Source of the DNA: Gemmatimonadota bacterium
Lineage (GTDB): Bacteria; Gemmatimonadota; Gemmatimonadetes; Gemmatimonadales; GWC2-71-9
Direction: 5' to 3'
DNA length: 42,320 nucleotides
Assembly (NCBI GenBank): GCA_029862925.1
Contig: JAOTWJ010000011.1
Location: 1-42,320, forward strand
This document shows, in pieces, positions 26,045 through 31,026 of this stretch. The first letter of the stretch is position 1, and each line of letters starts with the position of its first letter. The notes below the pieces were generated by a model. That model did no database searches. It saw nothing but the letters and a program-made list of their open reading frames with translations, and was not told the DNA's origin. The position numbers were made by a program, and so were the translations under genes.

Positions 26045-27460
26045 CTACTGTGACCAGGTGCGGGAGGTGACGCCGGCCGGCGTTCGTCCGCCGATGACGA
26101 GGCCGCGGCTCCCCCCGGAGGCCGTCGGCGACGCTGGCGCCCCGAAGCTCCAGGGCGGTCCGCCGAGGGCGCTCGCGATCGTGGCCTGCGGCAGCTCCTG
26201 GAACGTACTCAGCGAACCATCCGCCGCGACCAAGGCGAATTCGGTCTCACCCGAAGAGGGCATGCCGGCGTAGACGCCCCCGGTGACGACGAGGGCATCG
26301 TCCAGCGCGAACGCGCCGTGACGCGCGCGCGGGTAGGTGAGCGTGACGCCCAGCTCGGTCCAGACGGAGTCGGCGAAGGCACCGGTCTGGCGGCTCAGGG
26401 GGATGGCCAGCACGGACGCACTGAGGGCCGTGGTGTCGGCGGTGCTGTCGAGCCGGACCAGCCCCCGCTCGCCACCGATCACGTAGAGCATGGTCCCGGC
26501 GACCACCGCCGCGGCGAAGGCCCGGCCTTCGGGCAGGCGGGGACCGGCAAACCAGCCGTTGAGGGTGCCATCGGCGCGAATCCGCGCCACACTGACGGTC
26601 GGTGACGCGAGCGAGTCGAGGCCGACGCCGCCGATCACGTAGAGCGTGCCGTAGGCCAGCGCTACCGCCACGCCGGCGCGCGCGCCCGGCAGGGGGGTCA
26701 GCGGCGTCCAGAGCCCGTAGGATCCCTGGGCGGTGAGCGCGATCCCGAGCACATCCGGGAGCAGGCGAAGGGTCGAGTCGGCTCCGCCGACCACGTAGGC
26801 CACCCCTTCCAGGGACAACGGTGCGTTGGTGCGATCGGCGCCGACGACGGCATGATGCCGGCGGGGCGCCGGCACGATCGTGTCCGGCGCGGCGCGCCAG
26901 CTGACCACGCGACCCTCGGCGTCGATGGTGCCGAGGAACGTGGCCTCGGAGAGGCGGCCATCCGTGCGTCTCCCACCGTACGCGATGAGCAGACCGGCCA
27001 GCGTCCCGCCGGAGGCAAACCGGAGCGTGGCTGCCTGCAGGTCGGTCAGCGGGAGCGGGAGGTTCGGTCCCTCGACCCACGGCCGGTCGGCGGCCGTGTA
27101 CGGCGTGTGGTCCCGCGCGAACAGGTCGAGGGGCCCAAGCGTGTCCCGGTCGGTGATCACGTACGTGGGTCCGGTGACGACATCCGCTGGAAGCACCGCG
27201 TGCACCGCGCCATCCTCCCACGACAGCACGGCCGCCGTTCCCGGTCCGCTCGCCGTCGTGACGAGGATCGTGCCGCCGCCCTGGGCGGCACCGAACCCGA
27301 ATCCCACCCACGCGGCGGTGTCGCCGGGTGCGACGATCGGGACGAGCGCGCGGTTCACCGATTCCAAGTTGGGCGCGGCTACGGTCGGCGCGGTGCTGCC
27401 GCCGCAGGCGGCGGCGCCGAGCGCGAGGGCGGTGATGAGGGCCAGAGACGTGGCGTGCAT
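26045..27460 (-). CDS. Kelch-repeat-like lipoprotein
   Basis: A 471-residue lipoprotein. The signal ends in the lipobox LGAAACG, so the cysteine would be lipidated. A short IPT/TIG-like strand region (APGDTAAWVGFGFG, about 40-115) is followed by Kelch-type propeller blades: LLIAYGGRRTDGRLSEATFLG, GVAYVVGGADS, GTLYVIGGVGLDS, TMLYVIGGERG, DALVVTGGVYAG, GLVIGGRTPAG. The double-glycine pattern recurs about every 50-70 residues. Ligand unknown. It is the first gene of a minus-strand run with the M14 peptidase and DUF4015 genes; a -10 TATCTC is 7 nt from the ATG. Confidence 0.85.
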   Translation of the reverse strand: MHATSLALITALALGAAACGGSTAPTVAAPNLESVNRALVPIVAPGDTAAWVGFGFGAAQGGGTILVTTASGPGTAAVLSWEDGAVHAVLPADVVTGPTYVITDRDTLGPLDLFARDHTPYTAADRPWVEGPNLPLPLTDLQAATLRFASGGTLAGLLIAYGGRRTDGRLSEATFLGTIDAEGRVVSWRAAPDTIVPAPRRHHAVVGADRTNAPLSLEGVAYVVGGADSTLRLLPDVLGIALTAQGSYGLWTPLTPLPGARAGVAVALAYGTLYVIGGVGLDSLASPTVSVARIRADGTLNGWFAGPRLPEGRAFAAAVVAGTMLYVIGGERGLVRLDSTADTTALSASVLAIPLSRQTGAFADSVWTELGVTLTYPRARHGAFALDDALVVTGGVYAGMPSSGETEFALVAADGSLSTFQELPQATIASALGGPPWSFGAPASPTASGGSRGLVIGGRTPAGVTSRTWSQ

Positions 27461-27501: not shown

Positions 27502-29586
27502 TCAGACCCCGGCCGCGGGCTCGCCGCGGATCAGCCGCACGCTGTCCGCCAGCCGCTGGGAGATGGCGGCAAGCTCCCGCGCGCCGCGCTCGAGATCCTC
27601 GGCCGACCGGCGTTGGTCGACGGCGTCGCGCGCCACCGCGGCCGCTTCCGTGGCGGATCGCGCGGCCGCGTCCTTCGCGTGCGTCAGGGTCTTGGCCGCG
27701 CTTTCGGCGAGCTTCAAGCTATCGCGGGGGGCGTCGGCGATCTCCTCGCCAACCCGGCGCGTGTCCTCGGCGGCGCGCACGATACCGGTGAGGTCCTCGC
27801 GCCAGCGCTGGGAAACCTGGGCCAGGTTGCCGAGCCGGTCGCCGATGTCTTCGAGCAGCCGGGCGGCACGATCGAGGACCCGGCGGGTGGCCTGGGCACT
27901 GCGGCTCATGTTGCGAGCGGCCTGGGCACTCTCCTCCGCGAGCTTGCGGACCTCGTCCGCGACGACGGAGAAGCCGCGGCCGTGGACGCCGGCGCGTGCG
28001 GCCTCGATCGTCGCATTGAGGGCGAGCAGATTGGTCTGGTTGGCAATGGAGGCGATGGTCTCGGCGAACCGCTCGACGTCCTGCGACGCATCGCGCAGGG
28101 ACGCGACCTCGGTGGCGCCCTGCCCGATGGTCGTCCCGAGCTCGATGAGCTGCTCGGCGGCGCCGGCGCTCGCGTTGCGCACGTCCAGCGCCCGCTCCGC
28201 CATGGCGCGCGTCGCATCGCGCGCCCGCCCTGCGGCCTCCGTGGCGTGGCGGACGCCCTGCGCGACGCGCGTCAGCCCCTCCGCCGCCTCCGTCACCTGT
28301 GCCGCCGCTTGCTCGGCTTCCGCTTCCGCTCGGGACGCGCGCGTTGCCACGTCCACGGCCGTCGCCCGGATCGCGGCCATCGTATCCGTGAGACGGCGGA
28401 CGAAGTCGGTGGCGTGATCCGACGAGTCGGCGACCGGGCGGACGAGCGAACTGAGCGCGATCGAGAGTGCCAGCTGCGGCGCCAGCAGGTTGAGCAGATC
28501 GCCGTCCGCGTCCCGGTACACGCCTTCGTCACGGTGGCGGACGTTCCACACGCCCACGAGCTCGGTTCCCTGGAGGAGGGGGACCAGCACCTCCGAGCCG
28601 GACCGTTCCTGGCCCTCGAGCTGGAGTGACCGCGCGCCGCCAACGACCGGCTGACGGCGGCGCAGCGCGAGACCGGTGAACCCCTGGTCCGCCGGGAACG
28701 TCAGGCCGGCACCTGCGCGCGTGTCGGCGAGCACTTCGACCGTTCGCGTCCGTTCGTCAAAGCGGCCGAATCCCATGTCCGTCCACGGGACCAGGTGGTG
28801 GGTCAACTGACGGATCCGCTCGAAGCTGCGTTCGATGCTCACTTCGGCGGCCACGGCGCCGGCCAGGCGGTGGACGAGCCGAAGCTCGTCAGCCCGGACC
28901 GCGGCGGCGATAACCCAGTACGTGAGGACGAAGGCGGCGAGCAGCAGTCCGCCGACGACAAAGGCGGGGCCGATCGTGACGTCCGCCGCGGCGAGGGACG
29001 CCCAGCCGAGCGCAAACGCGACCGAGGCGGCGTAGACCACGCCTTCCCAGCGGAACGTCAGCTTCGCGTCACTCCACTCGAACATGCCCTGGAGCGCGAG
29101 TTCGAGGTAGAACGTCCCGTTCACGACGACGGGGAGCGTGGCTGCGAGCAGGATGAGGGGGCCGAGATTGGCGGCGGTCAGCGCCGGGGCACCGGTGAGG
29201 CCACCGACGGTGTCGTAGAGCAGCCCCGTCAACGTGGTCCCGAAGGCGAGGTGGGCGGCGACGATCAGCACGCCGCGCGGAGCCGCCCGCCTGAGGAACA
29301 GATCCCCGAAGACCTGCCCGACCACCGTGACGACGACGGCGAACGCCCACCCGTGCACCAGTTGAGCCGCCAGCACCACGGCTAGCACGAACGACGCGAA
29401 GCCCTTGCCCGGCAGGGCGATGCCGAATCGGCGCGTGAGGGAAGCGACGGCGGCAAACAGCACCACGTCGAGGAGCAGGGCGCCCGCCGACCGTGGGGAG
29501 GTCGTGGCGAGCGCAGAGATGCCCCCGAGCAGGCCGGCGCCAGCGCCGACCACGACGGCGGCGCGGAGCCACGCGGCGCGCCGCAT
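27502..29586 (-). CDS. Methyl-accepting-chemotaxis-like protein with membrane and GAF domains
   Basis: 694 residues from the ATG at 29586; the longer open frame upstream is arginine/serine-rich and overlaps the selenoprotein gene, so I reject it. Residues about 8-230 form six to eight membrane helices, resembling an integral-membrane sensor. A GAF domain follows (about 245-385, [34 protein letters not shown]). The C-terminal signalling domain has the receptor hairpin tip ([33 protein letters not shown] near 515-555) that contacts CheA/CheW. There is no periplasmic loop of normal receptor size and no HAMP domain that I can see, and no che genes nearby. It may drive a non-flagellar output. Confidence 0.85.
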
Positions 29587-29711
29587 GCGGGCGGCAGGGG
29601 TATCCGGAATACGTGTCTCGCGGACGAGGGTGCGGCGGGAATGTTGCGGGTTCCCGCGGATTGTGCAAGCGCTGCGTGGCGAGGACGGACGGTCGGAGTG
29701 TAAGTTCGAGC
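29587..29711. promoter_or_regulatory. Divergent region between the chemoreceptor-like gene and the selenoprotein gene
   Basis: 125 bp. Minus-strand TATTCC (29611-29606) lies 19 nt from the receptor ATG. Plus-strand TAAGTT (29701-29706) is 5 nt from the selenoprotein ATG and predicts a leaderless or nearly leaderless mRNA. No good -35 or Shine-Dalgarno sequence is seen on the plus side. Confidence 0.35.
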
Positions 29712-29945
29712 ATGCGAATCGGCATTCAATACTGCGTGCCCTGAAACTACAAACCCCAAGCCGCCGGTCTGGCGGCCGAGCTGCAGGCACGCTATCCCGA
29801 CGCGGCCATCCGGCTGATCGAGTCGTCGGGCGGGGCCTTCGAGGTTTCGGTGGACGGAACCGTGCTCTTCTCCAAGCTGCGGCTCAAGCGCCACCCGGAG
29901 CCGGGTGAGGTGCTCGGGCTCATTGAGCAACACTCGAGGCGGTGA
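29712..29945 (+). CDS. Selenoprotein W-like (SelT/SelW/SelH, Rdx family) with UGA-encoded selenocysteine
   Basis: A 77-residue protein if the in-frame TGA at 29742-29744 is read as selenocysteine (residue 11). The start [10 protein letters not shown] leads to the redox motif C-V-P-U, followed by [13 protein letters not shown] and the family block [16 protein letters not shown], then RHPEPGEV. These match the Rdx thioredoxin-like family, whose members carry CxxC or CxxU after the first strand. A SECIS-like hairpin lies just downstream of the UGA. Normal calling would leave only a 10-residue peptide. The true stop (29943-29945) is one base before the phosphofructokinase ATG, so translation of the two is linked. 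Likely a small cytosolic thiol/selenol oxidoreductase; the physiological partner is unknown. Confidence 0.88.
29742..29776 (+). promoter_or_regulatory. UGA codon plus bacterial SECIS-like hairpin
   Basis: UGA at 29742-29744, a 15-nt spacer, then GCCGCC (29760-29765), apical loop GGUCU (29766-29770) and GGCGGC (29771-29776). The stem is perfect. The GGUCU loop is identical to that of the E. coli fdhF SECIS, where the G and U contact SelB. The 21-nt distance from UGA to loop falls in the usual bacterial range. The hairpin lies inside the coding sequence, as bacterial SECIS elements do. Confidence 0.82.
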
Positions 29946-29946
29946 C

Positions 29947-31026
29947 ATGCGCATCGCGATCTCCACGGGGGGCGGCGACGCGCCCGGACTGAACGCCGTC
30001 ATCCGCGCGGTGGTGCTTTCCGCGCTGCAGCGCGGGTGGGAAGTGCTGGGCATTCAACGCGGGTTCGGAGGCCTGCTGGGTGACGCACAGGTGGTGCCGG
30101 TGACGCGGGAGACGGTCCGCGGGATCACGCACCTGGGCGGCACCATCTTGGGGACGACCAATCGCGGGAATCCGTTCGCGTGGCCGGTCACGCGACCGGA
30201 CGGAGTGGTCGAGGAAGTCGACCGATCGGACGAGGTCCTGGACGGATTCCGACAGCTGACCCTCGACGCGATGATCGTCGTGGGGGGCGACGGCACGCTG
30301 CAGATCGGCAAACGGCTCGGCGAAAAGGGGCTACCGCTGGTGGGCGTGCCGAAGACGATCGACAACGACGTCCGTGGTACGGTGATCACCTTCGGATTCG
30401 ATACGGCGGTCAACACCGCCACCGATGCGATCGACAAGCTCCATTCGACGGCGGAAAGCCACCAGCGCGTGTTCGTGGTGGAGGTGATGGGCCGGCACGC
30501 CGGCTGGATTGCCCTGAACTCCGGGCTGGCCGGCACGGCCGACGTGATCCTGCTTCCCGAGATTCCCTTCGACATCGAGCGGGTGTGCGACAAGATCCGG
30601 CAGCGCGAGGCCGACGGCCGCCGGTTCAGCATCGTCGTCGCGGCAGAGGGCGCCACGCCCGTGGGCGGGGAGTTGGTGTTCCAACAAGGCACCGCGCCGG
30701 GACGGGTAGCCCGACTCGGCGGTATCGGCGAGCGGGTGGCCGACCAGATCGAGGCGCGCACGGGCAAGGAAACGCGGTCGGTGGTGCTGGGCCATCTGCA
30801 GCGGGGCGGCTCGCCGACGACGTTCGACCGGCTGCTCGCCTTGCGGTTCGGCGCGGCGGCCGTGCGGGCGGTCGAGGCGGGTCAGTTCGGGCAGATGGTG
30901 GCGCTCGATCCGCCACACATCGTCACCGTGCCGCTCGAGGAGGCGCTCCATGGCCACAGCGGGGTGCCGCTCGACCACGATTCCATTCAGACCGCACGGG
31001 ACCTGGGGATTTCGCTGGGCGACTGA
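29947..31026 (+). CDS. pfkA: 6-phosphofructokinase
   Basis: A 359-residue PFK-A family enzyme that phosphorylates fructose 6-phosphate in glycolysis. Motifs: ISTGGGDAPGLNAVIRAVV at the N-terminus, VVGGDGTLQIG, GVPKTIDNDV with catalytic Asp, EVMGRHAGWIAL, VVLGHLQRGGSPT. The phosphate-donor determinants are mixed: glycine in GGDGT (ATP type) but lysine in PKTIDND (common in PPi-type and some non-allosteric ATP enzymes). The donor is therefore uncertain, with ATP favoured. The ATG at 29947 follows the selenoprotein stop by one base; an upstream in-frame ATG (29905) would lie inside that gene. Confidence 0.93.
   Translation: MRIAISTGGGDAPGLNAVIRAVVLSALQRGWEVLGIQRGFGGLLGDAQVVPVTRETVRGITHLGGTILGTTNRGNPFAWPVTRPDGVVEEVDRSDEVLDGFRQLTLDAMIVVGGDGTLQIGKRLGEKGLPLVGVPKTIDNDVRGTVITFGFDTAVNTATDAIDKLHSTAESHQRVFVVEVMGRHAGWIALNSGLAGTADVILLPEIPFDIERVCDKIRQREADGRRFSIVVAAEGATPVGGELVFQQGTAPGRVARLGGIGERVADQIEARTGKETRSVVLGHLQRGGSPTTFDRLLALRFGAAAVRAVEAGQFGQMVALDPPHIVTVPLEEALHGHSGVPLDHDSIQTARDLGISLGD

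Follow-up and report, generated by a model that had tools for sequence, protein, structure and literature searches.

Reading frame of the selW-like gene

The window, by which we mean the whole stretch of 42,320 nucleotides that was analysed, holds on its plus strand a small reading frame that is crossed by a UGA after ten codons and resumes in good order beyond it, which raises the question of whether this codon ends translation or is translated as selenocysteine (Sec). The codon is almost certainly read as Sec, and we infer the insertion itself from the frame, its conservation among relatives, the machinery genes of the same genome, the constraint on the hairpin that follows the codon and the predicted fold of the product. 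In the explanation that we propose, SelB together with Sec-tRNA-Sec would bind the hairpin shortly past the UGA, selenocysteine would be inserted at residue 11 of a SelW-like protein of the Rdx family, strand 1 would thereby end in a CxxU redox site, and expression would be coupled with that of the downstream gene, pfkA, as a two-gene transcript (Table 1). We hold this explanation, taken as a whole, with very high confidence.

Table 1. Features of the selW-pfkA locus, in positions of the window.
Feature	Position	Strand	Basis
selW-like selenoprotein gene (predicted), 77 residues including Sec11, with terminal UGA stop	29712..29945	+	Rdx family
In-frame UGA, almost certainly the Sec codon, U of C8-V-P-U11	29742..29744	+	Codon conserved as UGA/Cys
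Putative SECIS hairpin, stem GCCGCC/GGCGGC (6 bp), apical loop GGUCU (29766-29770)	29760..29776	+	Comparative constraint
pfkA, 6-phosphofructokinase, 359 aa	29947..31026	+	PF00365, TIGR02483, linkage

Rereading the window bore out what the first-pass annotation had described, namely the frame, the UGA of the CVPU motif, the perfect 6-bp hairpin with its GGUCU loop and the start of pfkA one base downstream. The two arms of the hairpin occupy 29760-29765 and 29771-29776, beginning 15 nt past the Sec UGA. Among perfect hairpins of 6 bp with a 5-nt loop on the plus strand of the window, there are 36 when any loop is allowed, and the one in selW is the only one with a GGTCT loop. The product ends in EQHSRR, the terminal stop of selW is itself a UGA (29943-29945), and the ATG of pfkA at 29947 lies 1 nt past it.

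The claim that standard gene calling yields nothing here was only partly right, since an 83-aa ORF with a GTG start (29493-29744, plus strand) lies in the selW frame and terminates exactly at the Sec UGA, so that a gene finder could call a spurious truncated gene. The minus strand holds an ORF (27505-29790) whose domains are GAF and methyl-accepting chemotaxis signalling. The GTG assigned to it mechanically as a start lies antisense over the start of selW, so the ORF probably begins further in. The same strand also has an ORF for a Kelch-repeat protein (26048-27460).

Family and fold

The product matches the Pfam family Rdx, PF10262, when it is read with Cys for Sec (E 1.4e-20, 73.7 bits against a cut-off of 22.6), as well as the NCBIfam model NF041051 for SelTWH (94.7 bits, curated cut-off 88) and TIGR02174 (64.2 bits, cut-off 34.2). 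When the query and 30 relatives are aligned, the only invariant columns among these 31 sequences are C8, residue 11 (U or C), G41 and F43. The AlphaFold2 model has a pLDDT of 97.0, and its best Foldseek matches are the SelW-related structures 2fa8, 2obk, 2ojl and 3dex, with TM scores of about 0.83-0.89 and RMSD of 1.2-1.5 A, 2fa8 and 2ojl being at about 0.87-0.89. With profile scores over their cut-offs, a CxxU motif aligned with the Cys of homologues and a thioredoxin-like SelW fold in the model, we conclude that the gene encodes a SelW-like (Rdx) protein with a predicted thioredoxin-like fold. By analogy with its family, the protein would be a thiol/selenol oxidoreductase.

Atu0228 of Agrobacterium tumefaciens (2fa8) has the fold in common with our model (TM about 0.87, RMSD 1.2 A) and is matched by phmmer at E 2.9e-9, but in this and other Cys-type SelW-related proteins of known structure, Cys stands where the selW-like gene would have Sec. 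Mouse selenoprotein W (2npb) shares the family and the CxxU motif but is distant from the SelW-like protein (23% identity, TM 0.64). Eukaryotic SECIS elements are located in the 3' UTR, whereas those of bacteria are inside the coding sequence (PMC1088965).

Linkage to pfkA

For relatives, 84,980 species genomes were scanned, and a further 298 genomes were drawn evenly from the window's phylum. Of 90 loci within the phylum, 65 have pfkA in the same orientation and no more than 100 nt downstream, made up of 33/43 in the window's family, 28/33 in the rest of the order and 4/14 in other orders of the class. Outside the phylum the linkage was found in none of 12 loci, one of which (L018) is cut short by a contig end. 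The product of pfkA in the window matches PF00365 (1.2e-106) and NCBIfam TIGR02483 PFK_mixed (444 bits). A promoter and terminator scan found none, and selW and pfkA are probably co-transcribed as a two-gene transcript.

Here 1 nt separates the two genes, and 17 of the 65 linked relatives have them overlapping by 4 nt (ATGA). With such spacing, read-through of the UGA could couple to pfkA translation. This gives some weight to a reading in which the gene is mainly regulatory and works as a selenium-sensing leader switch, with the choice between a stop at codon 11 and read-through setting the translation of pfkA. We regard such a switch as improbable, since the protein is conserved over its full length with a complete SelW fold, SelW genes that have no pfkA linkage still have the UGA, and the Cys form of one genome (G129) retains the linkage. 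These points leave room for coupling, which may exist as a side effect.

In this phylum, SelW might serve phosphofructokinase as a dedicated redox partner or as its regulator, a role that we consider doubtful. Were it true, entry into glycolysis would be adjusted to the supply of selenium and to the redox state, either via contact with PfkA or via UGA read-through coupled to pfkA translation, and a role at PfkA would give bacterial SelW a defined function. A literature search on phosphofructokinase, SelW and selenoprotein found, within the library covered, no paper on selW-pfkA linkage.

Conservation of the UGA codon and the downstream frame

The scan of 84,980 genomes gave 13 relatives, of which 10 have UGA and 3 have Cys at the Sec codon, and their record names place them in the Gemmatimonadota, Planctomycetota, Chloroflexi/Dehalococcoidales, Alphaproteobacteria, Deltaproteobacteria and Nitrospirae. 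In the draw from the phylum, 151 of 298 genomes have a homologue, which is of the UGA form in 149 and of the Cys form in two (G129 and G052, both TGC). Base by base across 103 loci, the codon is TGA in 98, TGC in 4 and TGT in 1. The first-pass annotation had proposed aligning Cys homologues at this position, and in the five loci that have Cys, it falls at exactly that codon.

Many homologues share the sequence downstream of the UGA and keep its frame. The closest relative, L010, comes from a Gemmatimonadota MAG and is 73% identical (its PfkA is 82% identical to that of the window), which makes it most likely that the window belongs to this phylum too. After the UGA, comparison of selW with L010 gives pS 0.47 and pN 0.17, or dN 0.19 and dS 0.75, and past the hairpin only, dN 0.21 and dS 0.90. 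Since dN is far below dS, the downstream frame is maintained as protein. Disrupted downstream frames in close relatives would have spoken against the gene, and what the comparison shows is purifying selection after the UGA.

A draft assembly of 290 contigs that is 90% complete, as this one is, could contain a former Cys codon (TGC or TGT) that has mutated to TGA or was misread as such, in a gene that is dead. With the same UGA in 98 loci from several phyla and separately sequenced genomes, and with purifying selection past it as well as a conserved SECIS, we find a pseudogene or a sequencing error extremely improbable.

We set aside a median pN/pS of 0.76 over close pairs because sequences of unequal length had been compared unaligned, an artefact that L124 shows. 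This locus (in G013) encodes a SelW of the UGA form that seems to have lost around two dozen residues by a deletion inside its second half. It still overlaps pfkA and is possibly a decaying copy.

The hairpin as an RNA element

Searched against the covariance models of Rfam, the hairpin had no match even at E 1, nor does the folding energy of the single sequence stand out (z -0.71), so the case for a SECIS was built on comparative evidence. Over 95 distinct hairpin regions, stem pairs 1 to 6 are standard in 93, 97, 98, 84, 100 and 98%, pair 4 being the weakest position of the stem. Compensatory changes are seen at pair 3 (C-G to G-C and T-A), pair 4 (G-C to T-A, A-T and C-G) and pair 5 (C-G to T-A). 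As a null, the six codons were recoded synonymously at the genes' own codon usage, using 94 distinct sequences. The number of paired positions, out of six, is 5.72 observed against 4.60 +/- 0.08 under this null, all six pairs are formed in 74% against 14%, and GU is present in the loop in 86% against 9.6%. The codon usage in the loop is skewed. Where the loop codon is Gly, it is GGT in 52 of 53 genes, compared with 71 of the 587 Gly codons that lie farther along these genes (P 7e-41).

All of the loop pentamers that we tallied have G at position 2, and the commonest after GGUCU are AGUUU, AGUCU, AGGCU and AGGUU. The published description of bacterial SECIS elements places a guanosine in an apical loop of small size (PMC1088965), and the loop G of the selW hairpins, which lie just past the UGA and have such a small loop, fits this description. 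These comparisons show that selection acts on the hairpin as RNA.

Distant loci (L017-L019) have a less regular hairpin, L019 with 5/6 pairs in the same register and L017 and L018 with 3/6, L017 folding a shifted stem instead. In the Cys form of G129 (L102), 5/6 stem pairs are left and the loop G is lost, and this locus is likely a Sec-to-Cys conversion with a fossil hairpin.

Selenocysteine machinery

The first-pass annotation predicted that the organism has a Sec-insertion system, and selA, selB, tRNA-Sec (selC) and selD were all found in the genome, including the two, selB and selC, whose absence it had named as fatal to the idea. The tRNA-Sec scores 69.3 bits, over the Rfam cut-off, and is called by ARAGORN as tRNA-SeC with anticodon tca, and selA matches at 480 bits. 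For selB, a match of 316 bits covers the N-terminal part and lies close to where contig C255 ends, and contig C275 opens with a match to a C-terminal stretch of the profile, consistent with one gene split by the assembly. Pairs of SelB and SECIS can be specific to a species. The selD match (369 bits; L032:1091-2062, contig C45) has its own in-frame UGA near the N-terminus, in HGAGUACK, so the genome would have at least two selenoprotein genes.

Across the 298 phylum genomes, selA was detected in 221 and tRNA-Sec in 216. Among the 149 with the UGA form, 140 have selA, 137 have tRNA-Sec and 148 have at least one of them, while 85 of the 149 genomes without the UGA form have selA and/or tRNA-Sec (Fisher P 7.5e-22, a value that overstates the evidence because the genomes are akin to one another). 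The direction of this profile, taken from gene content, matches what Sec use would predict. In a single UGA-form genome, G038, neither selA nor tRNA-Sec was found, possibly because the genome is incomplete. Neither was found in the two Cys-form genomes, G129 and G052, the former being one contig that is listed as 100% complete.

The UGA could also be read as some other residue (e.g. Trp or Cys), independently of SelB and a SECIS, if the code were reassigned or the codon simply suppressed, and the frame would again be open past it. We give this almost no credence because selW's own terminal codon is a UGA that works as a stop just before pfkA, the UGA form tracks the Sec machinery and the hairpin is constrained. 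The reading of the locus as a hidden SelW/Rdx selenoprotein, put forward in the first pass, is thus supported by family, machinery, exchange of UGA and Cys, and constraint on the hairpin.

Relation to known bacterial SelW

SelW-like selenoproteins have long been known in bacteria, since at least 2005 (PMC1088965, PMC1794560, PMC2398784). Represented by 427 Sec and 56 Cys sequences, SelW is among the most widespread selenoproteins of the Global Ocean Sampling set (PMC2398784). It has been listed with the families that have few Cys homologues, or none, in organisms containing Sec (PMC1794560), and its function in bacteria has been described as unclear (PMC1088965). The kind is therefore already known, and what looks new, compared with known bacterial SelW, is that roughly one in two of the sampled genomes in one phylum carries the gene, usually right before pfkA. 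Two bacterial surveys checked for the name of this phylum do not have it in their main text (PMC1794560, PMC5029168).

Routine gene finders would cut a small selenoprotein of this type short or leave it out, which matters when it is so widespread in the phylum, and the conserved pfkA linkage offers a concrete, testable lead on the role of bacterial SelW, a question that the early surveys left open. Epsilonproteobacterial SelW genes, which also have UGA and SECIS, were wholly missed by annotation (PMC4607533); they belong to another phylum, and pfkA is unmentioned in that paper. Otherwise the gene has the features of bacterial SelW-like selenoproteins in general, with the same CxxU position, the Rdx match, a SECIS downstream of the UGA, and Sec common and Cys few among organisms that decode Sec, in line with earlier reports (PMC1794560, PMC2398784).
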